IMG/VR virus record: IMGVR_UViG_3300025128_000292
Coordinates: 1 to 25,719 of that record
Origin: a virus
DNA length: 25,719 bases
Reading direction: 5' to 3' (one strand)
Shown here: piece by piece, positions 1,297 through 21,260 of the stretch
How positions within the stretch are numbered: position 1 is the first letter of the stretch
Layout: every line of letters starts with the position of its first letter
Program-made: the position numbers and the translations under genes
Notes under the pieces: model-generated
The model's database searches: none
Seen by the model: only the letters and a program-made list of their open reading frames with translations
Told to the model about the DNA's origin: nothing

Positions 1297-2784
1297 TTAA
1301 ACAGTACCTTGAATAAGAACGTGCTGGTTAGCAGATCTTGTTACTAGACAACACTCTGAACGGTAGTGAAACTTAGCAACGTCTTGAGTATCGTTAGTGA
1401 AACCAAGAACACCACCACCAGTTACCCAGTGCTCCATCTCACGGTTGTAACCGCCAGCAGCCTTAAAGTTCATTTCTAGAGCAGGAGCTCTTTCACCTGA
1501 ACGTGGATCTACTACGTTAGCAAGAGGGATCATCACACCAGCAGCTAGTCTGTTATGAACGTCGTCATTACCAAGAAGTGTTGGATCGTTAAGAAGCTTA
1601 AAGCTGTTCTTGTGGAACGTGTATCCGCCACGAGAGAAAGACTTAAACCCAAGGTTTAGAGCCATGTCTCTGTCGTTGTTGAAAGCTCCGAAGCTTGCAG
1701 CAACACCTGCAGTAACGTTAGCACCAGCACCAGCGCCAGCAACCATATCGTCAAGAAGAAGGTCTTGGCGAGTAGCTGAGTAAACAGCATATTCAGCAGG
1801 ACATCCGTTCTTATCCATCTCCTTAATTAGAGCATCTAGGTCAGTAAGACCAGCAGAACCGATAAGGTCTGAAGTTACCATACCACGATCTTCTAATGCT
1901 GAGAAGTATCCCTCAGTACCGTCGATATCAGTGATACCGTTTGAAATATCGATGTTAGTTACCTTCTGTCCAAGAAGCATTACCATCTCACGCTTATCCA
2001 TAAAGCGCTGACGAGTATCCATCTCAGACTTGATGTAGTAACGGTAGTCACCACCACCTACATCGATGTAACCGATGTTAGTAGCTTGTGATCCAGAAAC
2101 CTCGAAAGACTCCTTTACGATAGCGTAAGGATTAGTTCTCTTAACAACGTTAGACTCTAGGAAACGATCTGGTTGATCAGAACCTTGAGCGAACATGTTA
2201 CCGATAATAGGCATTGTGTATGCCGTCTCGTCAACTAAAGCTACAGTTGGGGCAGCAGCGCCGTCATTAGCGTTAGCTCCAAGAAGAGGCTTAGTAGTAA
2301 AGCCTGTTGTAGTAGCAGCAGTAACTAATAAGCGATCAACACCGTTGATAAGAAGAATATCTCCTACACGACAAACAACTTGAGCAGAAGAAGCGTCGTT
2401 AAAAGAAGCTTCACTTGTAGCAAGCACTGTGTCAAAGATTAATCCTCCAGCAATATCTGTAAGGTCAGATGCTTGAGCACTTCCATCTTTGTCAACAGCA
2501 CTAGCAATAGTAGCAGTTTGCGTTTGGTGTAGACGAGCTTCTTCGAAATACTGAACATTATCAGCAGTACCGTTAGACTTAATAGCTCCAGTCATTTTTA
2601 AAAATCCAGAAATGCCTTGATTACCGAAAGACTTCGATAGCTTAGCACGTACGTCTGGGGCGTTTACTTCATCAATGAAGTCGTACAACGAAGTATACTT
2701 CGTTGGATCAGCCAAATTGTACAGGTTGTTGTTGATGCCTTTAGGGGCAGAGCTAAACGTACCTGTAGATTGTGTAATAGCCAT
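1297..2784 (-). CDS. Probable major capsid protein
   Basis: A 495-residue soluble protein without signal peptide or membrane segment, of normal length for an HK97-fold capsid protein. The mixed sequence has an N-terminal arm (MAITQSTGTFSSAPKGINNN), a long middle region with motifs such as RQRFMDKREMVMLLGQK, and a C-terminal part with a Gly-rich turn (HWVTGGGVLGF). It lies 18 bases after a scaffold-like gene and between small beta-rich virion genes, the normal capsid position in phage head operons. Codon use looks more regular here than in neighbouring genes, as expected for a very highly expressed gene. I assign it from length, composition and order, not from a recognised motif. Confidence 0.7.
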   Translation of the reverse strand: MAITQSTGTFSSAPKGINNNLYNLADPTKYTSLYDFIDEVNAPDVRAKLSKSFGNQGISGFLKMTGAIKSNGTADNVQYFEEARLHQTQTATIASAVDKDGSAQASDLTDIAGGLIFDTVLATSEASFNDASSAQVVCRVGDILLINGVDRLLVTAATTTGFTTKPLLGANANDGAAAPTVALVDETAYTMPIIGNMFAQGSDQPDRFLESNVVKRTNPYAIVKESFEVSGSQATNIGYIDVGGGDYRYYIKSEMDTRQRFMDKREMVMLLGQKVTNIDISNGITDIDGTEGYFSALEDRGMVTSDLIGSAGLTDLDALIKEMDKNGCPAEYAVYSATRQDLLLDDMVAGAGAGANVTAGVAASFGAFNNDRDMALNLGFKSFSRGGYTFHKNSFKLLNDPTLLGNDDVHNRLAAGVMIPLANVVDPRSGERAPALEMNFKAAGGYNREMEHWVTGGGVLGFTNDTQDVAKFHYRSECCLVTRSANQHVLIQGTV

Positions 2785-4839: not shown

Positions 4840-5163
4840 TTATTTTTTGCCGAATGTCTTCTTCTGACTCTTTGGTGGACGCTTACTGTGCCCCCCTGCT
4901 TTCCATAAAAATCTGTTAGCCCAATATGCGGCACTACCTTTACGTTTAATATTTTTTGCGTGTCTACTCTTAAAAGCTTTTCGTGCTTCGGGGCTGTAGT
5001 TGTTCCCCATCTTCTGATCACCAAAACGCACTACCTTTCCTCCCTCTTGCCCAGGGCCTATCGTAGAAAGAACCACAGCCTTTTTAGTAGGGTGGTTTCT
5101 TGTAAGCTTTGGTTTGTTAACTCCTTTAAGCCCAAGCTTTTTTAATTTGTCTTTTATAGCCAT
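4840..5163 (-). CDS. Basic phage protein (DUF6321-like)
   Basis: A 107-residue very basic protein. The motifs GVNKPKLTRNHPTKKAVVLS, VVRFGDQKMG and FKSRHAKNIKRKGSAAYWAN match, from memory, a family of phage proteins recorded as DUF6321, whose hallmark is a HPTK segment, an IRFG segment and a KARHAKNI-(x)-SAAYWA segment. Function is unknown; its charge suggests nucleic acid binding or packaging with DNA. The start overlaps the stop of the thioredoxin-fold gene (TAATG), so translation is probably coupled. It ends the envelope cassette. The DUF number is from memory. Confidence 0.75.
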   Translation of the reverse strand: MAIKDKLKKLGLKGVNKPKLTRNHPTKKAVVLSTIGPGQEGGKVVRFGDQKMGNNYSPEARKAFKSRHAKNIKRKGSAAYWANRFLWKAGGHSKRPPKSQKKTFGKK

Positions 5164-5531
5164 TAGAAGTCGCTCATTATAATTTCGTCAACAGCACCCT
5201 GCACATCACTCTTGCTCGCCTCCATCGTCATCATAATATTCGCCTGAAAGCGATCCACTTCTTCTCCGTTGTTGAACACAACGATTGTTGGGACCACGAC
5301 GATCTTGTGCTCCATTTGTAACTCTGGAGCAACGGCAATGTCTACACGGGTTGTTGTGCAGTCGTTTAGCTTTTCTATCCAAGGCACACTGTTTTGAGAG
5401 TTGAACGAAGCGTTAAACTCTGCAACACATATGCCGTCTTTATTAATTCCTGGGGCACTCTCCAGAGGAGATACATGCACCACCATTAATAATGATAGAA
5501 GCGATAATACAGATACTAGAACAGTTTTCAT
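5163..5531 (-). CDS. Secreted thioredoxin-fold protein lacking CxxC
   Basis: A 122-residue protein. Residues 1-26 are a signal peptide (MKTVLVSVLSLLSLLMVVHV core, then SPLESA). Residues 33-118 follow the thioredoxin order: a strand ending in CVAEFNASFN, helix with VPWIEKL, a strand TRVDIAV, then VVVPTIVVFNNGEEV with the cis-proline at about residue 81, then a C-terminal helix. Where thioredoxin has WCGPC this protein has NASFNSQNS, so it should be redox-inactive. Cysteines 35 and 58 could form one disulfide. It should act in the periplasm, as a chaperone-like or binding domain. It overlaps the next gene by one base and follows the membrane coiled-coil gene by 9 bases. Confidence 0.75.
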   Translation of the reverse strand: MKTVLVSVLSLLSLLMVVHVSPLESAPGINKDGICVAEFNASFNSQNSVPWIEKLNDCTTTRVDIAVAPELQMEHKIVVVPTIVVFNNGEEVDRFQANIMMTMEASKSDVQGAVDEIIMSDF

Positions 5532-5540
5532 TTTTCATCA

Positions 5541-5822
5541 TTACAGGTTATCTATCTTTTCTTCGATACGTTTCATATCGTCTTTAATTTCGGTTACATC
5601 TTCTTGTGTAGTCATAATAGTCTGACGGATCAGTTGATCTTTCATATCAAACTCCATACGTGTAACTTCTGCAGGTAGTGGCTCAGGCAGTTCTTTAGCT
5701 AAAGCTATGTCTGCTTGAAGAGCAAACCACATCCCGATAAGGGCTGCTAGCCCTGCTACACCCATTCCTATTGTCTTTAGATCTAGTGTTACTTTAGTAT
5801 CCTCTCCAATTTGTTTTGCCAT
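5541..5822 (-). CDS. Membrane-anchored coiled-coil protein
   Basis: A 93-residue protein with one transmembrane segment at about residues 17-36 (IGMGVAGLAALIGMWFALQA). A linker with ELPEPLPAEVTRMEFDMKD and a charged heptad-like helix to the end (EDVTEIKDDMKRIEEKIDNL) follow. This layout resembles small phage inner-membrane proteins with a periplasmic or cytoplasmic coiled coil, and it could be holin- or spanin-like. No lysin gene is near, so a lysis role is only a guess. Its ATG overlaps the stop of the barrel-like gene (TAATG), which suggests coupled translation and a shared task at the cell envelope. Confidence 0.7.
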   Translation of the reverse strand: MAKQIGEDTKVTLDLKTIGMGVAGLAALIGMWFALQADIALAKELPEPLPAEVTRMEFDMKDQLIRQTIMTTQEDVTEIKDDMKRIEEKIDNL

Positions 5823-6919
5823 TATAGTATCACATAATTTAGTCCTACAGTAAAGTCATGCCATTCTCTATTCCAATACTTATTGTATTTACCTTCTAAG
5901 AAAACACCAAGACTTTTATTTAATCTCCACCCAAAGATAAGGCCTGCACCGTAATCGATCCATTGAGCCCCGTCAGTGGTTTCAAAGTAAGAGTACTCAC
6001 CCTCTGTCTTTAAGTGATATGGCATAACGCTAACCCAAGAATGCAGCCAGTAATCTTTTGTAAAGTGGTAATAGTCATAACCTAAAACAACAGAATAGTT
6101 CCATTGATTAGGCAGCTCGCTACGCTTACGATCTACATAGTCATCTATCACTTGAGGGATAACAACCTGCTCCCATACATCAGAACTATTTGCAATAAGC
6201 TCTCCGTTAGGAGTAAAGTATTCTTCTGCTTGTACGTCAACAGTATATCCCTCTTGTATAGCTAAACTTGTGTAGTGTAAATTTCCGTTAGGTAGTACCC
6301 ACTGGTCTAAGGGATTGTAACCATATGGCTCTGATATACGCTGAGCTATACCTACGTTAAAACTAAACTTACTATTGACGTTTAAACGTAAACGTTGAGA
6401 ACCCTCAAAGTATTCGACATCAGCAAAACCATCTTGCAGGTACTCAGCTTTAGCTATCCAGTTTTTTGCTACGTAACGGAGGAAGTAATCTTGATCTAGA
6501 AAGTTTCTACCCTGTTGTCTACGCCAATCAGCTTCAAACAAAAACTCAAACCCCTTTACCTTACCAATGTTTGCAGCATCACTATACGATCTTTCAGTAC
6601 CGTTGTAAAAAGTATTTGCTCTATTTTCATATCCAAACCTAGCAATCTTTCTAACGCCTAAAGTCATAGAGTAATCAAAAGGTGTTTCTACAACATCTGT
6701 TTGTAATCCATTTGTTACAGAATAAATATTATCATCAGCTACAGAATTACCGCCGCTAACAGCTGCATAAAAAGTAGCAAACTTAAATGTCTTCTTTAAC
6801 GTCTGTCCTTTTGCGTCTAAAGACGTACCAAGAATAAACACGACAAGCATTATTGTCATGTAAAGAAAAAACTGTAACCTTCTGTACTTACGGCAGTTAT
6901 TTAATTGCTCTGGTAACAT
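5822..6919 (-). CDS. Outer-membrane beta-barrel-like protein
   Basis: A 365-residue protein starting at the ATG at 6917-6919; a GTG one codon upstream is possible. A basic N-terminus (NCRKYRR) precedes a hydrophobic segment, about residues 17-34, and a likely cleavage near AKGQ-T, so it is exported. The rest is a string of amphipathic, aromatic-rich strands separated by polar turns: SVVLGYDYYHFTKDYWLHSW, IDYGAGLIFGWRLN, SLGVFLEGKYNKYW and a final DFTVGLNYVIL. Alternating Tyr/Trp, Gly and an aromatic-hydrophobic last strand are hallmarks of outer-membrane barrels. Cysteine is nearly absent. No TonB box or plug is seen, so a small porin-like barrel fits best. Phage genomes rarely carry such genes. 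Confidence 0.68.
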   Translation of the reverse strand: MLPEQLNNCRKYRRLQFFLYMTIMLVVFILGTSLDAKGQTLKKTFKFATFYAAVSGGNSVADDNIYSVTNGLQTDVVETPFDYSMTLGVRKIARFGYENRANTFYNGTERSYSDAANIGKVKGFEFLFEADWRRQQGRNFLDQDYFLRYVAKNWIAKAEYLQDGFADVEYFEGSQRLRLNVNSKFSFNVGIAQRISEPYGYNPLDQWVLPNGNLHYTSLAIQEGYTVDVQAEEYFTPNGELIANSSDVWEQVVIPQVIDDYVDRKRSELPNQWNYSVVLGYDYYHFTKDYWLHSWVSVMPYHLKTEGEYSYFETTDGAQWIDYGAGLIFGWRLNKSLGVFLEGKYNKYWNREWHDFTVGLNYVIL

Positions 6920-7068
6920 CACACTTCAAATCCTACATTTAAAACCATAAATCTAAACTTTTTTGCGTAACGTATTTCTAAGATGGTGATTGTTCCTAAC
7001 CTCCATTCTAAATGATACTTTTCTTTTTTGTTGTTAGCGTTCCAGCTATTAATCCAATTAACCTTCAT
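6919..7068 (-). CDS. Small basic protein, 49 residues
   Basis: A complete 49-residue frame between the secreted repeat protein and the barrel-like gene. Its ATG overlaps the upstream stop (ATGA, 7065-7068) and its TGA overlaps the next ATG (TGATG, 6917-6921), so it is tightly nested in the operon and very likely translated. Tryptophan-rich start MKVNWINSWNANNKKEKYHL, then GTITILEIRYAKKFRFMVLN. No signal peptide. The alternating residues at the end suggest a small beta sheet. Family not recognised. Its position suggests it serves the two exported neighbours or only keeps translation coupled. Confidence 0.72.
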   Translation of the reverse strand: MKVNWINSWNANNKKEKYHLEWRLGTITILEIRYAKKFRFMVLNVGFEV

Positions 7069-9278
7069 GATTTAATTATTTTCTTTTTAATAATTCTAGA
7101 GTTGTATTGTATAACGACCTCATACACACCGTTTGAAAGGTGTGAGAGGTCTATTGTTTTATCAGAAGTTTGTATAACAACTTCACCTAAATAGTTATAC
7201 AGAGATATCATAGCTGTTGATGGGGCTTGTATATACAATAATCCGTTTGTTGGGTTAGGGTATACACTGTATATATCGTGTATATCATATACGCCCTGCG
7301 GCCAGCCTTGCTCACAATAAGAGTATAGATCTACACACGCTTCATCCCAAGCGACTTCGCAGCAGTAAGGATCTATATCAATAATCCAAGCGTAACACCC
7401 ATCGTTAAGCCAATATGGCTCACCAGGTCCTGTGATACAACCTGCGTCATATAAGCAAGATTCTTCATCTGGAGTGTTTGCTAACTCATTGTAGTTATAT
7501 GCATCAGGATCCATACAGTCTGCTACTACCTCTACACAAGAATCCTCTAACTCTGTATTTGCATCGACGTTGTAGTTAAATGCATCTGGATTCATACACC
7601 CATATATATAAGCAATACAGCTTCCGTTTTCCGTATTAGCATCTGGGTTGTAATTAAACTGCGTTGGATCAGTACATCCGAATATTACTGGGATACACTC
7701 TCCAGCGTCTGTTGCTAAAGCATTATAATTAAACGCTGTAGGATCTTGACAGCCAACTATTTCTAACTCGTCACATACCCCATCACCATCGTAGTCATTT
7801 ACACAGCTATTATTGCAGTCGTAATACTCTACTGGATAATTGCAGTCAGAATTTGTGTTAGCTTCAGGGTTGTAGTTACAAGCAGCCGCATCCGTACAAC
7901 CATATATATAAGGTATACAACTGTCTCCGCAATACGGCGTAAAGTGATATACCGTCCAGTTAGGACCTGTAAATGGTTGAAGAGCACCCTGTCCGTTGTT
8001 TATAAATGGGTTACTGCCTTCAGACAATAAAGTGTCCCCAGCTTCGTTAAGGACATACACAGAGTTATGTAACGTCTGAAAGGCTAGCTCTTGAGATGAT
8101 TGCTGTTGATTACCAGCTTGGAAGTAGTATATATCGACTTCTTCATCAGAGTCTAGCACAATATCCCATGACTGAAAAAACTCGCCAGGACCTACGGTAA
8201 ACAGCCACTGCTGCTCACCCTGCACCATACCTATAGTAGAGTTACCCCATCCGTCAGCCGCATCATCCTCAAGAACAATCTGTATACTGCACGGGCCCAC
8301 AAGATCTGCTATCGTTGCAGTACTATCGTAATTCAAAGCTTCTGGGTTTGTGCACCCCCAGATGTGTAGTGTTTCGCAGGTATCTGGTAACTCGGCTTCT
8401 GGATTATAGTCTACATAATCATCATCCATACATCCGTAGATAGGAGGTGCTGGAGGGCACGGCTCTGTAAATATAGCGCCAGAGTACATCGTGTTTCCAT
8501 CAAACTCTGTAAATGCTAGATCTTCTAATTCCCATAACACACTATCGCAAGCCGTGATAACACAAGCTCCGTCCTGACCACCTGAAGCATAACCGTTTAA
8601 CCCATCTCCAAACTCGTCTGCCAATATTAATTCAAAACCTAAGCTAACACAAAAGTTGTAAGTATATGTAACAAGCTGATCGCCAAAGTCAAACTCACCA
8701 GGTATTACTTGATCATAAGGCTGTCCATCAGCTATATTAACTAAAGTAAACCCAGTTTCTCCAGGCCATGTATCTAACGTGAGATCCATTGACACTAGAG
8801 TTTCCGTAGAGTCACATTCAAATACATTACAACTTCCGTTATCAATGTTAGCCCATGGGTTGTAGTTGTTCGCAACAGGATTAGTACATCCAGGAAGAGG
8901 AGGTATGCAGGGATTTAAAGTAAAAGGTATAGTGTCTAAAGCTGTATCAAAATCATACACTGCTGTATCTAACCCACATGTATTGCTTATCCTATACCAC
9001 CCTTCTCCAAACTGACAGCATATCCCGTCACCAAAAGCATCCATCATTACAAACTCGTAATCTCCAGATGGTAGGAATACCATGTGATTTTGAAAGGTAT
9101 TGTTCTGATATGGAGGGCTTACTGCTACTACCTCAGAGTCTTCATTAAGTATTTCCCAAGAAGTCTCCCCAGCATACTGATCTGTTTGAACCTGCACATC
9201 CAACCAACTTCCTTGAGCTAATACACATGATGCTACCACCCAAAATAAAAAAACCAATAAGTAAGATTTGTTTTTCAT
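7065..9278 (-). CDS. T9SS-exported Cys-rich repeat protein
   Basis: A 737-residue exported protein. Residues 1-22 are a signal peptide ending VLAQ, typical of Flavobacteria. Three beta modules lie near 25-120, 160-245 and 330-445; the first two contain AFGDGICC and EFGDGLNG, as in surface proteins of marine Bacteroidota. Eight copies of a Cys unit of the form GC-T/M-(D/N)P-x-A-x-NYN-x-x-A-x(4)-C start near 130, 282, 308, 460, 509, 534, 560 and 587. NDYDGDGVCDELE (494-506) is a calcium-binding TSP3-like loop. Residues 671-737 are a type A T9SS sorting domain: YPNPTNG, ISLYNYLGEV, IDLSHLSNGVY, ending KKKIIKS. The product should cross the outer membrane and be released or anchored on the surface. 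Acidic and low in Lys until the tail. Confidence 0.85.
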   Translation of the reverse strand: MKNKSYLLVFLFWVVASCVLAQGSWLDVQVQTDQYAGETSWEILNEDSEVVAVSPPYQNNTFQNHMVFLPSGDYEFVMMDAFGDGICCQFGEGWYRISNTCGLDTAVYDFDTALDTIPFTLNPCIPPLPGCTNPVANNYNPWANIDNGSCNVFECDSTETLVSMDLTLDTWPGETGFTLVNIADGQPYDQVIPGEFDFGDQLVTYTYNFCVSLGFELILADEFGDGLNGYASGGQDGACVITACDSVLWELEDLAFTEFDGNTMYSGAIFTEPCPPAPPIYGCMDDDYVDYNPEAELPDTCETLHIWGCTNPEALNYDSTATIADLVGPCSIQIVLEDDAADGWGNSTIGMVQGEQQWLFTVGPGEFFQSWDIVLDSDEEVDIYYFQAGNQQQSSQELAFQTLHNSVYVLNEAGDTLLSEGSNPFINNGQGALQPFTGPNWTVYHFTPYCGDSCIPYIYGCTDAAACNYNPEANTNSDCNYPVEYYDCNNSCVNDYDGDGVCDELEIVGCQDPTAFNYNALATDAGECIPVIFGCTDPTQFNYNPDANTENGSCIAYIYGCMNPDAFNYNVDANTELEDSCVEVVADCMDPDAYNYNELANTPDEESCLYDAGCITGPGEPYWLNDGCYAWIIDIDPYCCEVAWDEACVDLYSYCEQGWPQGVYDIHDIYSVYPNPTNGLLYIQAPSTAMISLYNYLGEVVIQTSDKTIDLSHLSNGVYEVVIQYNSRIIKKKIIKS

Positions 9279-9968: not shown

Positions 9969-10535
9969 TTAAAATACTTTTTTAGGGAGGTAATATGTAG
10001 TCGAGTTAAAATACATATTAGAATCAGGGTTTACAGAAATACTTTCGTATAAAACATTATCTATGTTATGAATAGTATTAGCAGAAGTATTTGCATTCCA
10101 CCATGTAACTTTTGCTCCAGACTTACATAATGACGGTATAACAATAGCAAATAAACTCCAGTCATCTTCCCCCCATGTATCGTAAAATACTCCATCGTAA
10201 GTAGACAAAGAATCTTTTACTTCATACCAGTCTCCCTCTACTATGGTGACATTAGGTTTATCTGCAGCCCAAGCCTTAGCTTTTTCTATAACTTGAGGGT
10301 GGTTTTCTACTATCGTGTGGGATAATATAGAATTAGATTGAATATGCCCAGCAGATATACCCATACCAAAACCTATCTCTAATATATCTCCACCCCCTTC
10401 ACATACATAGTCAGCAGAGGCTTTCATTATAGGATCTTCCCAAGACATCATAACCTGCATTTCCCCTCCAAATGCCTCATCTGTATAATATATTTTATCA
10501 GAAGTAAATCTTAATGTTTTATCTATATAACCCAT
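9969..10535 (-). CDS. SAM-dependent methyltransferase, GAMT/PRMT-like
   Basis: A 188-residue class I methyltransferase. Motif I is DILEIGFGMGISAGHIQ (residues 50-66), followed by the acidic end of strand 2 (IVENHP, Glu77), then GDWYEV (101-106) and FYDTWGEDDW (117-126). The order WEDPIM, LEIGFGMGIS, a VEN/IEC acidic site and YDT is that of guanidinoacetate N-methyltransferase and the related Rmt2 arginine methyltransferases, rather than DNA methylases: there is no DPPY or NPPY. GAMT proteins are longer (about 235 residues), so this is a short form lacking parts of the C-terminus. It lies between fibre genes with TAATG coupling, so the substrate may be a virion protein or a host metabolite. 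The substrate is unknown. Confidence 0.82.
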   Translation of the reverse strand: MGYIDKTLRFTSDKIYYTDEAFGGEMQVMMSWEDPIMKASADYVCEGGGDILEIGFGMGISAGHIQSNSILSHTIVENHPQVIEKAKAWAADKPNVTIVEGDWYEVKDSLSTYDGVFYDTWGEDDWSLFAIVIPSLCKSGAKVTWWNANTSANTIHNIDNVLYESISVNPDSNMYFNSTTYYLPKKVF

Positions 10536-12850
10536 TATGCTATTTTCACAAATGTGTTATCAGGACAGAAATAAATTAGGTCGGAGCTGGGGCTAAGCAT
10601 ATAACCTATTATTCTTACAAAATGCCCGCTGCTTGTTGGTATATCCGTAGTACATGTTCCGTCCGTAGATCTTAGATAAACTTTTTTACCGTCATCATCC
10701 GTGCCTGCAGGAGCTGATGGAGTAACCATACCCCTTAATAACATACCGTCAGTATTTGATGCCGTGCCTAAAGATATAGCTAGTAAACCCGTTGCTGTAG
10801 CTTCAGCGCCAGCATTGGCTTCTGCCCATTGCCCGCCGTTAGTTAAATAATAAATCTTACCCGCAGTCATGCTTGTAGTGCTACCAAAGTACACTACGTC
10901 TCCAGCCGTATGATCACCGTCGTTAGTTCCAGGAATATCAAATACTCTTGAATCTATAGTGCATTTACCTGAAAACGTTTTGTCTCCACTAAACGTTTGA
11001 GTACCACTTAAGTGAGCTGTGTCGGCGTCTAAGTAAGCACTAGCGATAGCCGTACCTTGCCACGTTCCAGAAGATATAGTACCTACTCCAGTTACATTAG
11101 ATTGATTCGCTACAGAAAGTAAACCAGCATTTGTCATAGCTGCCGTACTACCCATGGTAAGAGTACCAGCTATAGTAGTTGTTGAAGCAGCACCTGCTCC
11201 TATTGTTACATCAACTTCTCCGTCTTGGTCTGCTCCATCGATCTGTAATCCTGTTGTAACAGTGCCATCAAATTCAGCGACTTTGAACCTAAGCCTACCC
11301 CTTTCTCCTCCAGATGCTGAGTCAAGAACATCTCCAAGTATTTCTGCGTATTGCTGATTGCCAGGAGATCCATCATCCAAGCCATGAAATGTAATTTTAC
11401 CTAGATTATCACCATCTACCATATCATTTAAAACGCCTCCACGAAGCTTTCTAAATAAAATTTCTGAAGATGTTGCGTCGTTTGTTAGGTTTTGTATTTC
11501 AACAACTGGCTTTGCACTGTCGGTGCTTTTCACATACATATTACCAGTACCGTTGTTCCATGAAAAGTTAGTAGTTGATGTAATATCGGCTGCGGAAGCT
11601 CCAATTAACACGCCGTTGAGCTCATGAGAACTACTTCCCGTACCACCGTTAGGAACAGGTAAAACTCCTGTTACATTAGATGTTAAATCACAATATGTTG
11701 TAGAAGTACTGCCTGTACCGCCGTTAGCAACAGGTAGCGTTCCTGTTACATCAGCTGTTAGGTCGATTTGATTTCTTGTAATCTCTTGACCTGATATAGT
11801 AATATAGTCTGGTGTACCAGCTAGAGTTACAGCTGGAGCATCTGCAAGAATTTGATCTTGAATAGCGGCAGACGTCATCAAGCTAGTGTCGTTATTAGCA
11901 AATGACTCAGCAGAAGTCTGTATTGTGGTTACATCAACGCTATCCAGTATAAGCCCTGTTGTTACTGAAAGATCCCCTGCCACCGTAGTAAGGGATGCTG
12001 CACCGTTACCTATGATAACATCTACCTCGTCCTCAGTATCACCATCGGAAATAACCAATCCTGGTTGTATTTCAGCATCATGTGAAGCTACACTTAAAGT
12101 AAGCTTACCACCTTCTTGACCATCTGCTGCTACTGCTACCTCACCTAGAATCTGAACAAACGTAGTTTGACTTTGCGCTGAGTCGTCCGACATAAAATCT
12201 ATTTTACCTATATCGTCACCATCAGCTCCAGCAGCACCCTTGTCCTTTCTAAAACGAATATAAGAAGGGTTTTCGCTTGCTGAGTTGCGGTTATCTAAAA
12301 TTATACCAGGCTCACCTTGATCGAGGCTTATTAATTGCAAAGCTTCACCGCCTGCTGTATCCCAAAGAGCCTTAGTCTCAGCGTTTAAAGTACCGTCAGC
12401 ATTTACTGTAACAAGCCTACCTGCAAAACCGCTACCTAGGTTTATAGCTATCTCAGAGGCGTCTATATTGAAAGAGTCTGAGTCTAAGCTTACGTTAACA
12501 AAATTTCCTGACGTAGCATCATAAGCCAACACTTGATTATTCGCAATAGAAGATATTGTTACATCAGTCAAAGCATTTAAATCAAAGTCAGAAGCTATAA
12601 AAGTATCACTAGAAGAGTCAAATTGTAAAATTTGAGTATTCGTAATAGACGACGCATTTACATCGGTAAGGCCTAATAAACTTGTTGGAGTAACAGAACC
12701 AACAAGATCTATAGAAATAGTATTTTGTGTTTGTATAGCTGTAGTATGCACATTGGTAGTGCTAGATAAAGCTAAGTTTACCTCATCACTGCCTACGGCC
12801 TGAGTGAGCACATTAGTGCCTGTCGATATGCTTAAGTTTATATCGCTCAT
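10535..12850 (-). CDS. Long tail-fibre protein with internal duplication
   Basis: A 771-residue low-Cys beta-fibre protein. Residues 5-125 hold short repeats (INLSISTGTNVL, VNLALSSTTNVH, LTDVNASSITNTQILQFDSS, LTDVTISSIANNQVLAYDAT). Two related blocks follow at about 182-291 and 449-563, each with a ...LRFRKxxG-like strand, ILGxV, Gly-rich GGKLxxxVAxxD and EVDVxIGxGAASxTTxAG. Between them are the fibre hallmarks GTLPVANGGTG (370-380) and GVLPVPNGGTG (395-405). The C-terminal domain (about 640-771: GDVVYFGSTTSMTAGKIYYL) is a beta domain common in marine phage fibres. It binds the host surface in the mature virion. Start and stop codons overlap both neighbours (ATGA and TAATG). Confidence 0.85.
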   Translation of the reverse strand: MSDINLSISTGTNVLTQAVGSDEVNLALSSTTNVHTTAIQTQNTISIDLVGSVTPTSLLGLTDVNASSITNTQILQFDSSSDTFIASDFDLNALTDVTISSIANNQVLAYDATSGNFVNVSLDSDSFNIDASEIAINLGSGFAGRLVTVNADGTLNAETKALWDTAGGEALQLISLDQGEPGIILDNRNSASENPSYIRFRKDKGAAGADGDDIGKIDFMSDDSAQSQTTFVQILGEVAVAADGQEGGKLTLSVASHDAEIQPGLVISDGDTEDEVDVIIGNGAASLTTVAGDLSVTTGLILDSVDVTTIQTSAESFANNDTSLMTSAAIQDQILADAPAVTLAGTPDYITISGQEITRNQIDLTADVTGTLPVANGGTGSTSTTYCDLTSNVTGVLPVPNGGTGSSSHELNGVLIGASAADITSTTNFSWNNGTGNMYVKSTDSAKPVVEIQNLTNDATSSEILFRKLRGGVLNDMVDGDNLGKITFHGLDDGSPGNQQYAEILGDVLDSASGGERGRLRFKVAEFDGTVTTGLQIDGADQDGEVDVTIGAGAASTTTIAGTLTMGSTAAMTNAGLLSVANQSNVTGVGTISSGTWQGTAIASAYLDADTAHLSGTQTFSGDKTFSGKCTIDSRVFDIPGTNDGDHTAGDVVYFGSTTSMTAGKIYYLTNGGQWAEANAGAEATATGLLAISLGTASNTDGMLLRGMVTPSAPAGTDDDGKKVYLRSTDGTCTTDIPTSSGHFVRIIGYMLSPSSDLIYFCPDNTFVKIA

Positions 12851-13206
12851 ACTGTAACATCCTCATTTACTTGCAACACACCTTGAAGCCATGTTTGAGT
12901 TACACCAGCTACTATCGTTTGTAGATCGTACGTGTACAATCCGCTAGTAATACCAGCCATAATGTTTGCTGGAATAGTAATTGTAATAACACCGCCAGAT
13001 GTTCCAGTAATGGTCAACTGATCATTTGTTATAACAGAATCCTCAGAAGTATCTGTAGCACGCACCTCCATTTTAAAAGAGTACGTAGTAAGATCTACTG
13101 CTGCGCCAGCAGCGTCAGTAACATTTATAACAAGATTAAACGTATCGCCCTTTCTGCAGGTGATATCTAATCTTTTGGATACATCGAGGTTTACTACTGA
13201 ACTCAT
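12847..13206 (-). CDS. BppU-like baseplate/tail domain protein
   Basis: A 119-residue single-domain protein. RKGDTFNLVINVTDAAGAAV, then VDLTTYSFKMEVRA, GGVITITIPANIM and SGLYTYDLQTI match the Ig-like N-terminal domain of phage baseplate upper proteins (BppU family), which attaches receptor-binding proteins to the tail. Here it is a stand-alone gene directly before the long fibre, coupled by ATGA overlaps to the portal gene upstream and the fibre downstream. It probably acts as the adaptor between tail and fibre. Family recall is fairly sure. The partner assignment is inferred from order. Confidence 0.75.
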   Translation of the reverse strand: MSSVVNLDVSKRLDITCRKGDTFNLVINVTDAAGAAVDLTTYSFKMEVRATDTSEDSVITNDQLTITGTSGGVITITIPANIMAGITSGLYTYDLQTIVAGVTQTWLQGVLQVNEDVTV

Positions 13207-15653
13207 ATCATTGATTGTAAAAAGTTTTGTATATCTTGATTGTCAGACTCTACATCTGCTAAGGGAGCACGCTCACCTTTTCTTTGAGAGATAAGTTTAG
13301 ATTGCTCTACAGCTTGCTTCTTTACCCTTTGGTCTTTTCTATCGTCCTTCATTGTTTCGAGCTTCTCTCTAAACATCTGCTCCCCAGAGCGAGTTCCCCC
13401 AACCATCTGAGCCTTTAACTGCTCTAGCTGCATACTCATCTGATGCATAGCCTGAGCTACCTGAACGTCTACCTGACCTTTAAGTTGTATTTTTTGTGCT
13501 TCGAGCTGAGCCTGCATCTGCATCTCTTGCTGCTTAGCTTGAGAAGCAGCTTGAGCTGCTTGAGCGTTAGCTTGAGACTGAGCCTGTATGTTTTGCTGCT
13601 GCTGCTGCTGAAGCATTTTTATCCTTCTCTTTCTTCTTACGATAAGAAGCTTTTGAGCTTGATCGATATCCTTTAACTGACGTACAGCCATAGCGTCCTC
13701 TAGATCTATTTCTTTCTGAGCTAAAGAAGCTTGAAGATTTTGCTCTAAGAAGATGCGGTCATCATCAGACATAGTTTTAACAACCTGTACACCGAAGTTG
13801 TACATAGGTAAATCCTTAAATGACGTAAGGATTTCCATACTGTGTTTACCTATAGCTTTTTCATATACCCCATAAAGAATAGATTCTTCTGGAATAATCT
13901 GTAAACACTTAACAATATCAGAGCATACCTTCTTATATAAAACAAGGGATGCGTTAGTAATATCGTACAATGCGTTATTACCTGCAGCGATAGCCTGCTG
14001 CTGAACACCAACAAGAGCGTCACCTTTTGGAGTAGAAGCATCCATAACTTCGTTAACACCAGTGGCGTCACGAATCATACGTAGGTAGTGATTGTATAAA
14101 CTAATAAAAGAGTTTATGTTTCTTATCTGATTTTCTATAGAACGTATCGGTGGGTTTTGGAAACCTCCCTCTGGATTCTTAGAGCGATAGTACATAATAC
14201 CTGTCTGCTCGTATATATCTTGAATCTCTAAAGGACTAAGCTCACCACCCCTACCTAGCTGCACGTTTTCTAAACCTTCTATATCTATAATCAATCCATC
14301 AGGCTTAGCTTTAGCAATAGCTTGTTGGATCTTGCAATGTGTTAATTGTAGTTGATCAGCAAATCCAGTAACGCTACCTACCAAAGACTTAGGCATCATT
14401 CTCCTAATATTTGTGCAGGCTATACTATAAGAAAGTGTACACTTAGATATATCATGAACATTTTTAGGAATGTTCTTTTGTTGACCGTAGTTAAACAACC
14501 TACCGCTATCTACAATATAGCACCCTCCGTATATCGTTTCTACATCCATCTTATATGGCTGCCTGTTGTATACAGAATCAGAAACTGGCTTGTACTCACT
14601 GCCCTTGAAGTAAAATCCTACATTGCCAAACTGAGATTCTTTACTCTCATAGAAAACTTCGTCTACGCTTTTAAACTCAAACTGTAAAACATCGATAAGG
14701 TAATCGTCATATCCATACGTCATCTTTCTACCACTTCTGTCGTAACCTCCGCTAGCAAACTTACCAGAATCGTTATAGCTTTTATGCATAACCTTCTGCG
14801 CCATTTCTTCATACTCCTTTTCTGTAAACTCGTCGCCAGCCATACGCTTTAGATCCATAATAGACATACGCTTTACATGACCTGCATAAACGATGTCATT
14901 CATATTGGGATCTTCAGTATAGCTATGTACGAAGAATGAAGGATCTACATACTCTTCAGTAATACCGTAGTTAGGATCGTTATTTCTTTTTACAACACCT
15001 ATACCGCACGTGACAAGATCATTGACAGAGCGTCTATATATATGCTCATCGAAATCATTCCAATCTAAAGTTAGAGACGTAGCCAACTGCGCTGCTATCT
15101 CTGCGCTAGTTTTTATGTTTTCGTCTAAGAATATTTCTGCTTCCTCAGTAGTATCTGGTACGCTTTCTGGATCAAGCTCCATAGTTAATCCAAGCTGCTT
15201 AGCCTCTGCAAACTCTGTTTTGTTTTTTATTGTAGAGTTTATCTTAGCCTTCTGCATTTCTTTTTCTTGCTTAGATATAGGATCTATAGCTTCGACAGCA
15301 GGGTACGGCTTACGGGAAAGTATTCTGTTTACAACAACCTTTACAAACTTAGGTACGATAGGTACAGGGGACCAATCTATATTAAGTAACGTCCCGTCAC
15401 CATTGTTAGGATCCAGAGAGTTAAGTATTTGTTTATAGATAGAAGTGTCCTGCGTTCCGTTAGCGTAGTCTCTATTTTTTTCAAACTCATACATCCTACG
15501 ATTTAGTAGTGATGAAGAGTCTTCACCAGAGCCCCACTGCCCGTGGATAGCTTTAGCGTATTTCAGTCCGTATTCATTTGAAGCCTTTTCTATGGGACTT
15601 GCAAATGGATCTGGGAAGTTGCCGTATGTTCCTTTACTTTGTCCGTACTCCAT
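13203..15653 (-). CDS. Portal protein
   Basis: An 816-residue protein, long for a portal and of the size seen in podoviruses and crAss-like phages. Residues 45-130 include LNRRMYEFEKNRDYANGTQD and DWSPVPIVPKFVKVVVNRIL, the N-terminal portal pattern. A central region of mixed alpha/beta has SQFGNVGFYF and FADQLQLTHCKIQQAIAKAK, and ATGVNEVMDASTPKGDALVG precedes the long helix; these fit portal wing and stem. Residues 640-790 are a very Gln/Lys-rich helix, with a poly-Gln run (682-687) coded by a GCT repeat at 13595-13610, probably barrel or internal crown. Function: DNA gate and motor docking ring. Its own TATATTTG box precedes it, and it follows the terminase gene. Confidence 0.85.
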   Translation of the reverse strand: MEYGQSKGTYGNFPDPFASPIEKASNEYGLKYAKAIHGQWGSGEDSSSLLNRRMYEFEKNRDYANGTQDTSIYKQILNSLDPNNGDGTLLNIDWSPVPIVPKFVKVVVNRILSRKPYPAVEAIDPISKQEKEMQKAKINSTIKNKTEFAEAKQLGLTMELDPESVPDTTEEAEIFLDENIKTSAEIAAQLATSLTLDWNDFDEHIYRRSVNDLVTCGIGVVKRNNDPNYGITEEYVDPSFFVHSYTEDPNMNDIVYAGHVKRMSIMDLKRMAGDEFTEKEYEEMAQKVMHKSYNDSGKFASGGYDRSGRKMTYGYDDYLIDVLQFEFKSVDEVFYESKESQFGNVGFYFKGSEYKPVSDSVYNRQPYKMDVETIYGGCYIVDSGRLFNYGQQKNIPKNVHDISKCTLSYSIACTNIRRMMPKSLVGSVTGFADQLQLTHCKIQQAIAKAKPDGLIIDIEGLENVQLGRGGELSPLEIQDIYEQTGIMYYRSKNPEGGFQNPPIRSIENQIRNINSFISLYNHYLRMIRDATGVNEVMDASTPKGDALVGVQQQAIAAGNNALYDITNASLVLYKKVCSDIVKCLQIIPEESILYGVYEKAIGKHSMEILTSFKDLPMYNFGVQVVKTMSDDDRIFLEQNLQASLAQKEIDLEDAMAVRQLKDIDQAQKLLIVRRKRRIKMLQQQQQQNIQAQSQANAQAAQAASQAKQQEMQMQAQLEAQKIQLKGQVDVQVAQAMHQMSMQLEQLKAQMVGGTRSGEQMFREKLETMKDDRKDQRVKKQAVEQSKLISQRKGERAPLADVESDNQDIQNFLQSMI

Positions 15654-15690: not shown

Positions 15691-17829
15691 TCACTTTTTT
15701 AGAATTGAGGGGCCCGAAGAGTTGTATTTGTATTTTCTGAAAAAAGTTTTCTCTTCAAAATTAGTGCGTTTTATTTTCTTCTCTACCTTTTGAGAAGCGA
15801 GCAAAGCCAGGCCAGAACTTATCGTAAGGTCATACTTTGTTCTATCGTTTATTTTAAAACCTATCCAGTCTTCTAACGTGCGGTTGAAATACATCCTTCC
15901 CATATCCCCTTCCTCATTATACCCCACATGTTGATGGATATAATCTTCTACAGCTTGAGCATGAGCTTGGAGTACATCTTGTGAGTTAGACGGGATGCCT
16001 TTTGTTTTAACGTTACTACTGTAACTAGATGATTTTAAGTGATCTGGTCTATCCAATACATAACCGTCATAACCACGTTCTTCAAAATATCTAACGATCC
16101 CATATTTATTATTTTCTATAAGTAATGGATATCCGTAAAAGAAAGAAGCCATAAGTATATCCTCATAAAAAATCTTGGCCATAGGTGGTCGGCTCATATA
16201 TTCTGCAACAAACATATTAGAAGGATGCACCATATTAAACTTGTTAAACAAATGGCATGCACCTTTAGAGCCCCTCCCATCAACAGTAGCATCAAGATCG
16301 TAGGAGTCAACACCTCCGCAACCAAAAGCATGGTTTGGTGCAACAAGCTTTCCTCTTTCGTAAATTCTTTTGTTCTGCATTTCTGCTGGAGGCATCCAAG
16401 CTACCCTCCACCTTCCGTCAGCCATAGGCCTAAATGCAACCCTCCCGTCACGCTTTCCATCTACCCAAACAAAGTTTCCTTGAACAACAGGGTTAGGATA
16501 TAAGTTGTCATTGTTTTCTATTTGCTCATAAATCTTTCCTATATTAAATAGGCTGCCCTCTATACTATCTCTAAAAGCTTCTTCAGGAGAAAACGGGAAC
16601 TGACGTATAAACTCATTAAGCTCCCTAGCGTCAGTCTTCATAGCAGACCTCTCGTTTTTTAAAAAAGTCTTAGATCCAAAAGCTACAGCCTCCCCATCGA
16701 TACCGTCTATTGGAGACTTAGGATCTTCTATAACAGGATCTCCGTGAATATCAAAGAACCCTTCTAGCGCATCATAAGCTGGGATAAACAGTCTATACAA
16801 TCCAGACACAGTTCTTCCGTTGGCGTTACGCATACACGGATCAGAATCTTCCCATAACTTTTTATACTGCTTACCACCTTTGTCCATGGGATTTACTGTA
16901 CTACCAACCAAAGACTTACCCACTATCTTTCTACCTACAATAAGGCAAGTCCTTTGTATCCTCCAAGCTTCCTTTATATCGGTAGGTTTTTCCCACTTAC
17001 CTGCCTCATCGAGATACAGTAGATGCAGCTTCTCTCCGTCATACGCATTGTTAGTAGTGTTCTTCCAATTGATAATCGTATTTAACGCTTCACCTTTTGC
17101 AGAGGTTTTATTGTTTTTTGTTATACGTTTTGATGGCTCTCGGAAAGCTAGTTCCATACGTGGGTTTGTAGTACCGTCCTGTATAGGCTTAAAGAAGAAA
17201 GGGTACGATTTAAAAATCGGGACTACCTTTTTCATAAATATGTTTTCCTGAGCGTCTTTACCTGTTTTCGACTGGATCCCCAAAAGCTTGTCTTTAACCT
17301 GTGTAGCTTCGTCCACAAGAACAGAAGCACAGATATTGGTATAGCCAGAGCGACGACACTTAGTATATAGCTGACCGATACAACGAGGATCAGACTCGCA
17401 CGCAGCCATGTGTAGATAGATTTCACGTTGGTAAGAAAGATACGACGGGTAGCCGATATCTATTCTGGACCACTGTAAGAACATGTAATGACGCCCCGAT
17501 ATATATACAGGTGTGCCGTTATTATAAAACCAAAAACCCTGACGCCTACGTCTATATTCTTCTTCGATATACGGACGAAACCTTTTTCTAAATTCGCTCG
17601 GCGCCTCCATCCACTCGTCCATACTGCGAATCCTAAGCAGCTCTTTGGGTAGTTCTTGACGCCTCCAATATTGATCCTCCTGCGGAAGGTCGTGGAAGGC
17701 AATATCGGAATCGGCTGGTTGTTCGGGAAGCATAATGTGTAGACCACTGATTGTGATAACTTTACCCTGCGTGCCATCGGGGCATATACCAACAGCTTGT
17801 TCATTATATTCATTAACATCGATAAGCAT
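15691..17829 (-). CDS. terL: Terminase large subunit
   Basis: A 712-residue two-domain packaging motor. ATPase domain: a non-standard Walker A at 158-165 (CRRSGYTN, no GK[ST]), Walker B LLYLDEAGKWE at 270-280 with catalytic Glu275, and a coupling motif SLVGSTVNPMDKGG at 306-319. Nuclease domain: RNase H-like acidic residues in GVDSYDLD (506-513), AEYMSRP (542-548) and a further acidic-Asn site IENN (571-574). It cuts concatemeric genome DNA and pumps it into the procapsid through the portal, which is the next gene. ATG overlaps the stop of the small-terminase candidate (TAATG). The Walker A lysine seems replaced, as in several terminase families that use an arginine (here R159 or R160). Confidence 0.92.
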   Translation of the reverse strand: MLIDVNEYNEQAVGICPDGTQGKVITISGLHIMLPEQPADSDIAFHDLPQEDQYWRRQELPKELLRIRSMDEWMEAPSEFRKRFRPYIEEEYRRRRQGFWFYNNGTPVYISGRHYMFLQWSRIDIGYPSYLSYQREIYLHMAACESDPRCIGQLYTKCRRSGYTNICASVLVDEATQVKDKLLGIQSKTGKDAQENIFMKKVVPIFKSYPFFFKPIQDGTTNPRMELAFREPSKRITKNNKTSAKGEALNTIINWKNTTNNAYDGEKLHLLYLDEAGKWEKPTDIKEAWRIQRTCLIVGRKIVGKSLVGSTVNPMDKGGKQYKKLWEDSDPCMRNANGRTVSGLYRLFIPAYDALEGFFDIHGDPVIEDPKSPIDGIDGEAVAFGSKTFLKNERSAMKTDARELNEFIRQFPFSPEEAFRDSIEGSLFNIGKIYEQIENNDNLYPNPVVQGNFVWVDGKRDGRVAFRPMADGRWRVAWMPPAEMQNKRIYERGKLVAPNHAFGCGGVDSYDLDATVDGRGSKGACHLFNKFNMVHPSNMFVAEYMSRPPMAKIFYEDILMASFFYGYPLLIENNKYGIVRYFEERGYDGYVLDRPDHLKSSSYSSNVKTKGIPSNSQDVLQAHAQAVEDYIHQHVGYNEEGDMGRMYFNRTLEDWIGFKINDRTKYDLTISSGLALLASQKVEKKIKRTNFEEKTFFRKYKYNSSGPSILKK

Positions 17830-18113
17830 TATTTAGAAAAACGTTCTGCAAAGCCACTACTATAATCAGCCTCTTCTTCTATTTGCCCGTTGCTAGAAAG
17901 ATCCTTTAACATCTGCTCTAGCTTCTGACGTTCTATAAGAAGCTCCTTACAATCAATAGCAGTTTGCTTTATAGATTGTAATTCAGCTTTACGTGCGCTA
18001 CCATTTATTTCTTGATCAACAGGTTTTTTAATTTCACTAATCATATTATCTATGGCCTGCTCCATAGAAGACATAAGCCTTTTAGCTGCACTCGCTGTCG
18101 TAAACTTTGACAT
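17829..18113 (-). CDS. Candidate small terminase / coiled-coil protein
   Basis: A 94-residue mostly helical, charged protein without membrane segment. It has helix-rich stretches SAAKRLMSSMEQAIDNMISE and LLIERQKLEQMLKDLSS. It lies directly before the large terminase, overlapping it by one base (TAATG), the usual place of the small terminase subunit that recognises viral DNA and stimulates the ATPase. There is no clear helix-turn-helix motif, so the assignment rests on size, helicity and position. Its first 32 bases overlap the end of the GroES-like gene in another frame. Confidence 0.6.
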   Translation of the reverse strand: MSKFTTASAAKRLMSSMEQAIDNMISEIKKPVDQEINGSARKAELQSIKQTAIDCKELLIERQKLEQMLKDLSSNGQIEEEADYSSGFAERFSK

Positions 18114-18687
18114 AGCTTATATCATCTACCCTCATTCTATAAACAACATCACCATTATCTAGCTTTATTTTATAGTCAGAGTTTTTATCAAAACCTATAA
18201 TATCACCTGGCTTTACACCTTGAGCTTCTAACTCTGGATGAGGCATATATACTTCTGCCTCATCAGCAAGTTCTTTCTGTGTAGCAAGCTCCATTATAAT
18301 ACCGCTTTCAGAAACCTCATCCTCTCTTTCGTCTACAGGTAAAACAAACAACCAGTCAGAAAGCATATGCAACTCATCAGAGTCTTTATCTCTATATGCT
18401 ATTGCTTGACTCATCCTTCCGTTTTCTGGATCGTAAAGAACAAGATGCCTTTTGTCTCCTAAGTTTAACGCTGGGTTTGTTGTTACGTGATGGTGGAATA
18501 TAAGGGTATCACCAGGCTTACACTGTAGCTCTGGATGTTTCATAGGTGTAGCTATAATTTCTCCATAGGAGATCCTATGCTCAAACTCGTTAAATTTATT
18601 TTCTAGGAATATCTCTTTATCCCCAACCTTTAAAGTGTCCTCAAATTTCTTTGGGACACTTACAATAAAATGATATACGGCATTCAT
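18082..18687 (-). CDS. Double-barrel GroES-like co-chaperonin
   Basis: A 201-residue protein with two Cpn10-type beta barrels. Barrel 1 (about 5-105) has YGEIIATPMKHPELQCKPGD then TLIFHHHV. Barrel 2 (about 108-195) has DWLFVLPVDERE, a SESGIIM hairpin, VKPGDIIGFDKNSDYKIK and the end VVYRMRVDDISYVKV, which matches the GroES dome order ending ...(M/R)xxDI. GroES proteins cap GroEL and assist folding. Phages such as T4 (gp31) code their own to fold a capsid protein. Position just before the terminase and portal genes suggests use for virion proteins. The mobile loop is not clearly visible, so true GroEL contact is not certain. Confidence 0.72.
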   Translation of the reverse strand: MNAVYHFIVSVPKKFEDTLKVGDKEIFLENKFNEFEHRISYGEIIATPMKHPELQCKPGDTLIFHHHVTTNPALNLGDKRHLVLYDPENGRMSQAIAYRDKDSDELHMLSDWLFVLPVDEREDEVSESGIIMELATQKELADEAEVYMPHPELEAQGVKPGDIIGFDKNSDYKIKLDNGDVVYRMRVDDISYVKVYDSECS

Positions 18688-20912: not shown

Positions 20913-21260
20913 ATGAAGAACTTATTTTTAACACTCGCCCTAGTATTTAGCGGCACACTTTTCTGTCAAGAAACAAACGTTAACGTAACTCTAAAAGGAG
21001 TAGAAGACTCTATGTGGATGTTTGGACTCTTAAGCGACAACTACTACAAAGGATATAACTACGAAGCAGCAGACTTTACTGGTGAAGGATTAATAAGAGA
21101 AGGCAAAACGATAGACTTCAATATTACAAAGCCAGGTGCTTATTTTGTAACAATGAAGACTTCAAAGTTTCAAAAAGTAACCTTGGTACACATCATTGTT
21201 GAAGAAGGTGAAGACTACAAAATTGTACAAAGAGTACGCAATAAACAGTTGTACTTATGA
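20913..21260 (+). CDS. Small secreted (periplasmic) protein
   Basis: A 115-residue exported protein. Residues 1-20 are a signal peptide (MKNLFLTLALVFSGTLFCQ) with the Flavobacteria-type end F-C-Q, without a proper lipobox. The mature part is about 95 residues, with likely beta strands (TNVNVTLKGVEDSMWMFGLL, IDFNITKPGAYFVTMK, VTLVHIIVEEGEDYKIV). No family recognised. It is rightward and has its own promoter, so it is an independent gene inserted in the leftward block; it may act on the host envelope during infection or lysogeny. The last 6 bases overlap the end of the leftward gene at 21255. Confidence 0.75.
   Translation: MKNLFLTLALVFSGTLFCQETNVNVTLKGVEDSMWMFGLLSDNYYKGYNYEAADFTGEGLIREGKTIDFNITKPGAYFVTMKTSKFQKVTLVHIIVEEGEDYKIVQRVRNKQLYL

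Follow-up and report, generated by a model that had tools for sequence, protein, structure and literature searches.

A cassette of uncultured marine viruses encodes a predicted T9SS type A cargo protein together with a phage-specific outer-membrane beta-barrel

The window, meaning the whole stretch of DNA that was analysed, comprises the 25,719 bases of a single IMG/VR virus record, IMGVR_UViG_3300025128_000292, classed as linear. An open reading frame beginning with ATG and encoding 737 aa occupies exactly positions 7065-9278, as given in an earlier reading made from the letters alone (the sequence-only reading), and is encoded by the minus strand (9278→7065), a point that reading had left unstated. 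The gene had also been described as coupled to virion genes, and this holds: the end of the preceding gene is 18 bases upstream of the start codon, the same-strand genes upstream include those for the portal protein (phrog_6547) and TerL (phrog_6681), and the major capsid protein (phrog_13704) is encoded downstream. Promoter and terminator scans gave no signal above shuffles. The features are as follows.

1297-2784, minus strand: major capsid protein, context (phrog_13704, E 2e-108)
5163-5531, minus strand: exported thioredoxin-like protein of 122 aa with a signal peptide and without CxxC (PF00085, TIGR01068), kept in the cassette
5541-5822, minus strand: 93-aa protein with one transmembrane segment (residues ~18-36) and, C-terminal to it, a coiled-coil-like region; its start overlaps the barrel stop
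5822-6919, minus strand: phage outer-membrane beta-barrel of 365 aa, ATG at 6919, N-terminal hydrophobic signal, ~12 long strands
6919-7068, minus strand: small ORF of 49 aa (MKVNWINSWNANNKKEK...VGFEV), found by reading the sequence; similar ORFs of 62-63 aa in loci L092 and L145
7065-7265, minus strand: C-terminal T9SS sorting domain (CTD) of the cargo, including the stop codon (TIGR04183, PF18962, six-frame search, fold match)
7065-9278, minus strand: T9SS type A cargo of 737 aa (TIGR04183 and PF18962 above curated cut-offs, PF18962 in aligned relatives, AF2 fold match of the CTD)
Cargo residues 1-22: putative signal peptide
Cargo residues 23-124: N-terminal beta module
Cargo residues 125-612: NYNP Cys repeats and two more beta modules
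Cargo residues 613-660: conserved Cys domain with DPYCCxxxWD
Cargo residues 668-737: CTD
13203-15653, minus strand: portal protein, context (phrog_6547, E 6e-193)
15691-17829, minus strand: terminase large subunit, context (phrog_6681, E 1e-209)

Elsewhere in the window, a GroES/Cpn10-like gene (18082-18687, minus strand; PF00166, above the gathering score) lies near the terminase gene, as in elemo and Cellulophaga phages. The portal gene is followed by a gene with a weak match to the BppU N-terminal domain (12847-13206, minus strand; PF10651, below cut-off), and in many relatives, too, related proteins are encoded after the portal. A small methyltransferase-like protein (9969-10535, minus strand; PF13649, below cut-off) is encoded between the cargo and fibre-like genes, and a 115-aa protein with a signal-peptide-like start is encoded on the opposite strand (20913-21260, plus strand) and also in the close relative L302. 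No match to anti-phage defence families was obtained with PADLOC.

The N-terminus of the cargo reads MKNKSYLLVFLFWVVASCVLAQ/GSW, with an A-x-AQ end and a hydrophobic core of mean hydropathy 2.35 across 17 residues. Signal peptides were assessed by eye and hydropathy without a dedicated predictor. Since the AQ/GQ end is kept in relatives and the cysteine at position 18 is not, the sequence fits a predicted Sec/SPase I signal better than a lipoprotein signal; the latter, considered at Cys18 (VASC), was ruled out by the absence of this residue from the conserved positions of the relatives. The description of the product as a large Cys-repeat protein was borne out by 38 cysteines and by modular acidic repeats that are rich in Cys and include a DxDxDG motif. 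Its composition is strongly acidic, with 114 D+E and just 9 K+R. A Pfam profile search revealed no enzymatic or lectin domain.

Residues 672-736 matched TIGR04183 with E 8e-11 and 41.7 bits (curated cut-off 23) and PF18962 with E 4e-11 and 43.4 bits (curated cut-off 27), and a six-frame profile search of the record recovered the CTD with E 1.1e-13. Judged on these profiles, the match is far beyond chance. The results agree with the sequence-only reading, which had placed a type A T9SS sorting signal at the C-terminus and would have been refuted by an end without a match to T9SS sorting models. The structure prediction proposed there as a check was also performed. The predicted CTD fold matched 8GLK_D (Foldseek probability 1.00, TMt 0.76), a solved translocon-bound CTD from an entry that the PDB lists as a NucA substrate-bound T9SS complex, and the CTD of RgpB (7PQ4, TMt 0.61). 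The AF2 model of the cargo was built on a 34-sequence alignment and had a pTM of 0.32, so that only the CTD match was used; Foldseek matches of the cargo body were discarded as low-confidence.

Downstream of the cargo gene lie the remaining members of a four-gene cassette consisting of the cargo, a phage-specific outer-membrane beta-barrel, a small membrane/coiled-coil protein and an exported thioredoxin-like protein. The 93-aa coiled-coil protein co-occurs with the barrel and cargo. The 122-aa protein matched PF00085 with E 9e-4, below the gathering cut-off, and TIGR01068 with E 1e-4, and its sequence contains no CxxC redox motif. This thioredoxin-like protein without CxxC stays with the cassette, adjacent to a cargo with 38 cysteines. 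Between the cargo and barrel genes, the ATG of the 49-aa ORF overlaps the cargo stop (ATGA) and its TGA overlaps the barrel ATG (TGATG). Because of these overlaps and that between the 93-aa gene and the barrel stop, translation is probably coupled along the cassette, as far as can be predicted from gene arrangement. The versions of the 49-aa ORF in L092 and L145 contain extra Cys, which suggests that the ORF is a decaying small gene. The gene order is variable (barrel, transmembrane protein, thioredoxin-like protein, cargo in L023, L152 and others), and the set remains together. In L110 (7402-7821) and L111 (6382-6801) an N-acetylmuramoyl-L-alanine amidase (PF01510) is encoded directly upstream of the cargo.

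A scan of IMG/VR for the cargo returned 90 relatives, of which 78 distinct loci with 31-98% identity were retained; all sequences are metagenomic and mostly fragments. PF18962 was matched by 30 of the 34 aligned cargo relatives, and most relatives with the C-terminus present end in the same CTD type. In the alignment, the cargos of L074, L078 and L079 have a shortened tail consisting of the second half alone (DILGR...YSDG...), without the YPNP motif. A 175-aa mini-cargo in L291 (7103-7630 of G259) has a signal peptide, an N-terminal beta module and a shortened CTD-like end similar to these tails, with a divergent barrel upstream, and loci L115 and L120 (G012:16019-17448 and G016:2-1425) contain two tandem CTD-bearing genes directly upstream of the barrel. 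The median dN/dS was 0.037 for the cargo body, 0.033 for the barrel and 0.31 for the CTD, the last value being a rough guide as pairs were partly saturated. The cargo body is under strong purifying selection. Neither cargo nor barrel relatives were detected among 50,697 records of isolate phages. A search of 198 Bacteroidota genomes yielded no full-length cellular homologue of the cargo, with one exception: the MAG of L156 (G051) contains a nearly full-length best match, which was taken as the cargo gene of the phage contig. In the remaining genomes, similarity was limited to the CTD, to the NYNP Cys repeat or to the N-terminal module. Since these matches are only partial, the cargo is considered to be put together from parts of the Bacteroidota surface proteome while being phage-specific itself. 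The cargo genes form a family of phage genes. The profile matches, the fold, conservation within the family and synteny all support the view that the phage encodes a T9SS type A cargo; export through the host T9SS is inferred in the absence of export data, and is held to be very likely.

The AF2 model of the barrel had a pLDDT of 73.6 with ~12 long strands and matched NanC, OmpG, NalP and other outer-membrane barrels in Foldseek searches. Relatives of the barrel were found in at least 578 viral contigs and in only four contigs of a cellular genome collection. Three of the four (L155, L157 and L158) are filed under MAGs of Nitrosopelagicus, an archaeon, and Maricaulis, an alphaproteobacterium, and are probably misbinned phage contigs; the fourth belongs to a Sphingobacteriales MAG and is 63 kb long. 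NCBIfam searches gave no match of the barrel to TIGR03519 (PorP/SprF) or NF033709 (PorV), and hhalign probabilities were 0.5 and 1.2, respectively. Homology of the barrel to PorP/SprF or PorV was ruled out by these comparisons. The criterion that an outer-membrane beta-barrel be encoded beside a T9SS cargo is met, which bears on PorP/SprF-like working and not on membership in that family.

The linkage of cargo and barrel was evaluated in two ways with contigs selected independently of the cargo, and is strong. When contigs were picked by the barrel alone, a TIGR04183 protein was present in 40 of 41, with every CTD on the strand of the barrel and 38 of 43 CTDs at most 400 bp from it. Among 30 contigs picked by the terminase alone (72-98% identity in the scan), the barrel was present in six and a CTD protein in six, with both in five (Fisher p 2.4e-4). 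The sole barrel-only contig of this set encodes the 175-aa mini-cargo described above, three genes downstream of the barrel, and the sole CTD-only match scored below the cut-off. Pairwise distances of CTD and barrel were correlated at 0.72 over 76 loci, compared with 0.41 for the CTD and the preceding 150 cargo residues (bootstrap range of the difference 0.19-0.41). The correlation of the barrel with the adjacent 93-aa gene was 0.60, that of CTD and barrel being slightly higher (difference 0.01-0.25). The seven loci with other gene order gave a CTD-barrel correlation of 0.53 from 21 pairs only, a weak test. Linkage of neighbouring DNA may account for part of the CTD-barrel correlation, although not easily for how abruptly the correlation falls immediately upstream of the CTD. 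Because CTD divergence follows that of the barrel more closely than that of the 150 residues preceding it in its own protein, the comparisons suggest, without binding data, that CTD and barrel are a cognate pair with recognition. A dedicated partnership of barrel and cargo, the pairing being inferred, is considered somewhat more probable than its absence.

The cassette is not confined to one phage lineage. In L020 the cargo is 72% identical and the terminase 24% identical to those of the window, its phage having the terminase and portal in the same PHROGs as the window and the capsid protein in another; in L023 the identities are 70% for the cargo and 80% for the barrel, and no terminase match could be detected. 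These values show movement of the cassette between divergent phages. TIGR04183 was reached by none of the five isolate terminase relatives (elemoF, phi13:2, phi38:1, Gundel_1 and MW202828), and in elemoF, phi38:1 and MW202828 scaffold-like and capsid genes directly follow the portal gene, results indicating that the cassette is an insertion in part of the phage group. The terminase kin are Flavobacterium and Cellulophaga phages, from which the host is inferred, and not directly identified, to belong to the Bacteroidota. A related phage contig occurs in a Sphingobacteriales MAG with PorP- and PorV-family genes, although this may be a binning link only. With the host so inferred, the four-gene cassette is present in numerous uncultured marine viruses that infect Bacteroidota. 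A search of 25 long contigs for a tyrosine integrase found none; therefore, a lytic setting is likely, and display during lytic growth is likelier than lysogenic conversion.

A mechanism is proposed in which a virulent marine Bacteroidota phage would produce a Sec-exported, Cys-rich, highly acidic repeat protein at a stage inferred to be late in infection. The type A CTD would route the cargo through the host T9SS, and the barrel encoded in the same operon would pair with it and, as SprB/SprF and PG1035/PorP suggest by analogy, either gather it at the translocon or keep it attached to the surface, while the small membrane protein and the periplasmic thioredoxin-like protein may assist. The predicted outcome is that the infected cell acquires a coat made by the phage, which would mask or block surface receptors, leading to superinfection exclusion and to fewer progeny virions lost onto host cells and debris. 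Receptor masking or superinfection exclusion would be the most natural benefit because phage receptors in Flavobacterium have been proposed to lie within the gliding surface machinery, as T9SS-dependent gliding proteins (PMC7345892). The virus probably redecorates the infected-cell surface, with export and function unproven. The explanation as a whole, from T9SS display with a barrel partner to receptor masking by a phage-made coat, is favoured by a narrow balance of judgement.

Receptor masking or superinfection exclusion, the likeliest role, is inferred without phenotype data and remains tentative. The neighbourhood of virion genes is not a classic site for an exclusion gene, which counts against such a role. 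A further proposal is that the phages possess a private cargo/shuttle pair, in which the type A CTD co-evolves with a barrel confined to phages and related to neither PorV nor PorP. The pair would divert the translocon of the host so that a modular and exchangeable phage protein is displayed on the infected cell, and would spread among distant phages as a mobile surface-conversion cassette. This proposal is plausible although held with less than even confidence.

The alternative that survives best is that the cargo is an ordinary type A substrate for which host PorV and PorU suffice, attached to LPS or released, the barrel being co-inherited with an independent function such as a porin or receptor blocker. 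It is consistent with the CTD being type A, with the use of PorV by type A CTDs in F. johnsoniae (PMC12618676), with the lack of a profile link between the barrel and known T9SS barrels, and with the common occurrence of phage-encoded outer-membrane barrels in BFVD. Host type A cargo relies on the general shuttle PorV and should need no barrel of its own, which counts against pairing (PMC12618676). The near-obligate adjacency, same-strand coupling, co-occurrence and excess CTD-barrel correlation nevertheless suggest pairing, and this alternative is considered unlikely without being negligible.

Function of the cargo as an adhesin or lectin that aids infected cells or virions on particles, by aggregation or attachment and not by exclusion, is regarded as improbable. 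The modular Cys-rich acidic repeats with the DxDxDG motif do resemble surface adhesins, and the N-terminal modules are also present in large surface proteins of Bacteroidota; against this, the absence of a tyrosine integrase leaves little time for a gain in host fitness, and the cargo has no enzymatic or lectin Pfam domain. A role in lysis or egress, in which the barrel, membrane coiled-coil and thioredoxin-like proteins would reach across the envelope and break open the outer membrane while the cargo helps release, is judged quite improbable. The four products are predicted in the inner membrane, periplasm, outer membrane and surface, the amidase gene directly precedes the cargo in two loci, and holin-like genes lie near many loci. 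However, the close relative G048 has an endolysin (phrog_894) and holin (phrog_3427) more than 20 kb away, and the absence of the cassette from most phages with related terminases indicates that it is not essential for lysis. A lysis cassette defined by the amidase was rejected, the adjacency being restricted to L110 and L111 and not general.

The location of the cargo gene between portal and capsid genes would also be expected of a virion component, for example a fibre or head decoration. This possibility is judged very improbable, as the predicted signal peptide and the T9SS CTD would steer the cargo away from cytoplasmic assembly, and the barrel is missing from 24 of 30 contigs with related terminases whereas 77 of the 79 terminase loci retain the portal. 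Chimeric assembly or host contamination, for which the host-like CTD and nothing else speaks, is hardly credible and was already ruled out by the viral relatives, given 78 viral loci with family-wide synteny and 198 Bacteroidota genomes without a full-length cellular homologue, bar one phage-bearing contig.

If display of the cargo with the barrel as its partner is correct, phages routinely use the Bacteroidota T9SS and supply their own outer-membrane partner, and PorV and PorP/SprF would be joined by a third T9SS barrel class. The cassette would then provide a natural minimal cargo/shuttle pair for studying how a CTD chooses its shuttle, and surface remodelling of infected cells by marine phages would be widespread, affecting coinfection, phage competition and particle adhesion.

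The sequence-only reading knew of no established phage use of T9SS, a statement that prior reports do not support. Three T9SS-CTD cargo genes were reported from 'Cryophage' by Bellas et al. 2020 (PMC7468147), who suggested that the phage hijacks the host system and named superinfection exclusion as one option; de Jonge et al. 2019 (PMC6949934) reported T9SS sorting-domain proteins beside the head genes of gut phages. No demonstration of export for phage T9SS cargo proteins was found in the literature searched. The idea of a phage T9SS cargo is thus not new; what is new is the translationally coupled four-gene cassette with its own outer-membrane barrel, which the sequence-only reading missed and which is more informative than the CTD signal. 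A conserved cassette, a phage-only barrel, co-occurrence tests and CTD-barrel covariation were not found in the searchable literature, mostly without subscription papers and preprints.

Cryophage resembles the viruses described here in being a Bacteroidetes phage that encodes type A T9SS sorting-domain proteins, although its cargos are three variable enzyme or PA14 genes (PMC7468147), whereas the cargo here is another kind of protein, with Cys repeats, and belongs to a conserved set of four genes that includes an outer-membrane barrel and occurs in many phages. The crAss-BACON cluster 2 gut phages likewise encode T9SS sorting-domain proteins near head genes, but with BACON domains in place of NYNP Cys repeats and with no outer-membrane barrel partner described in the part of the source available (PMC6949934). 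Phage genes for outer-membrane barrels are themselves represented in BFVD, for example by the outer-membrane protein of Aeromonas phage phiAS5, although none was found linked to a T9SS cargo. PorV (NF033709) is an outer-membrane barrel that receives type A CTDs, yet has no profile match to the phage barrel, for which ~12 strands are predicted. The PorP/SprF barrels of F. johnsoniae and P. gingivalis frequently have a cargo gene as neighbour; they bind the cargo and are required for its secretion or surface anchoring (PMC12618676, PMC9143113). SprB/SprF and PG1035/PorP share with the phage cassette the frequent placement of cargo by an outer-membrane barrel gene and similar barrel lengths (~320-365 aa), whereas the bacterial cargos have type B CTDs and barrels of TIGR03519, and the phage CTD is type A with a barrel unrelated by profile. 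By analogy, it is proposed that the phage cargo and barrel work like an SprB/SprF-type pair without the barrel belonging to either the PorV or the PorP/SprF family.
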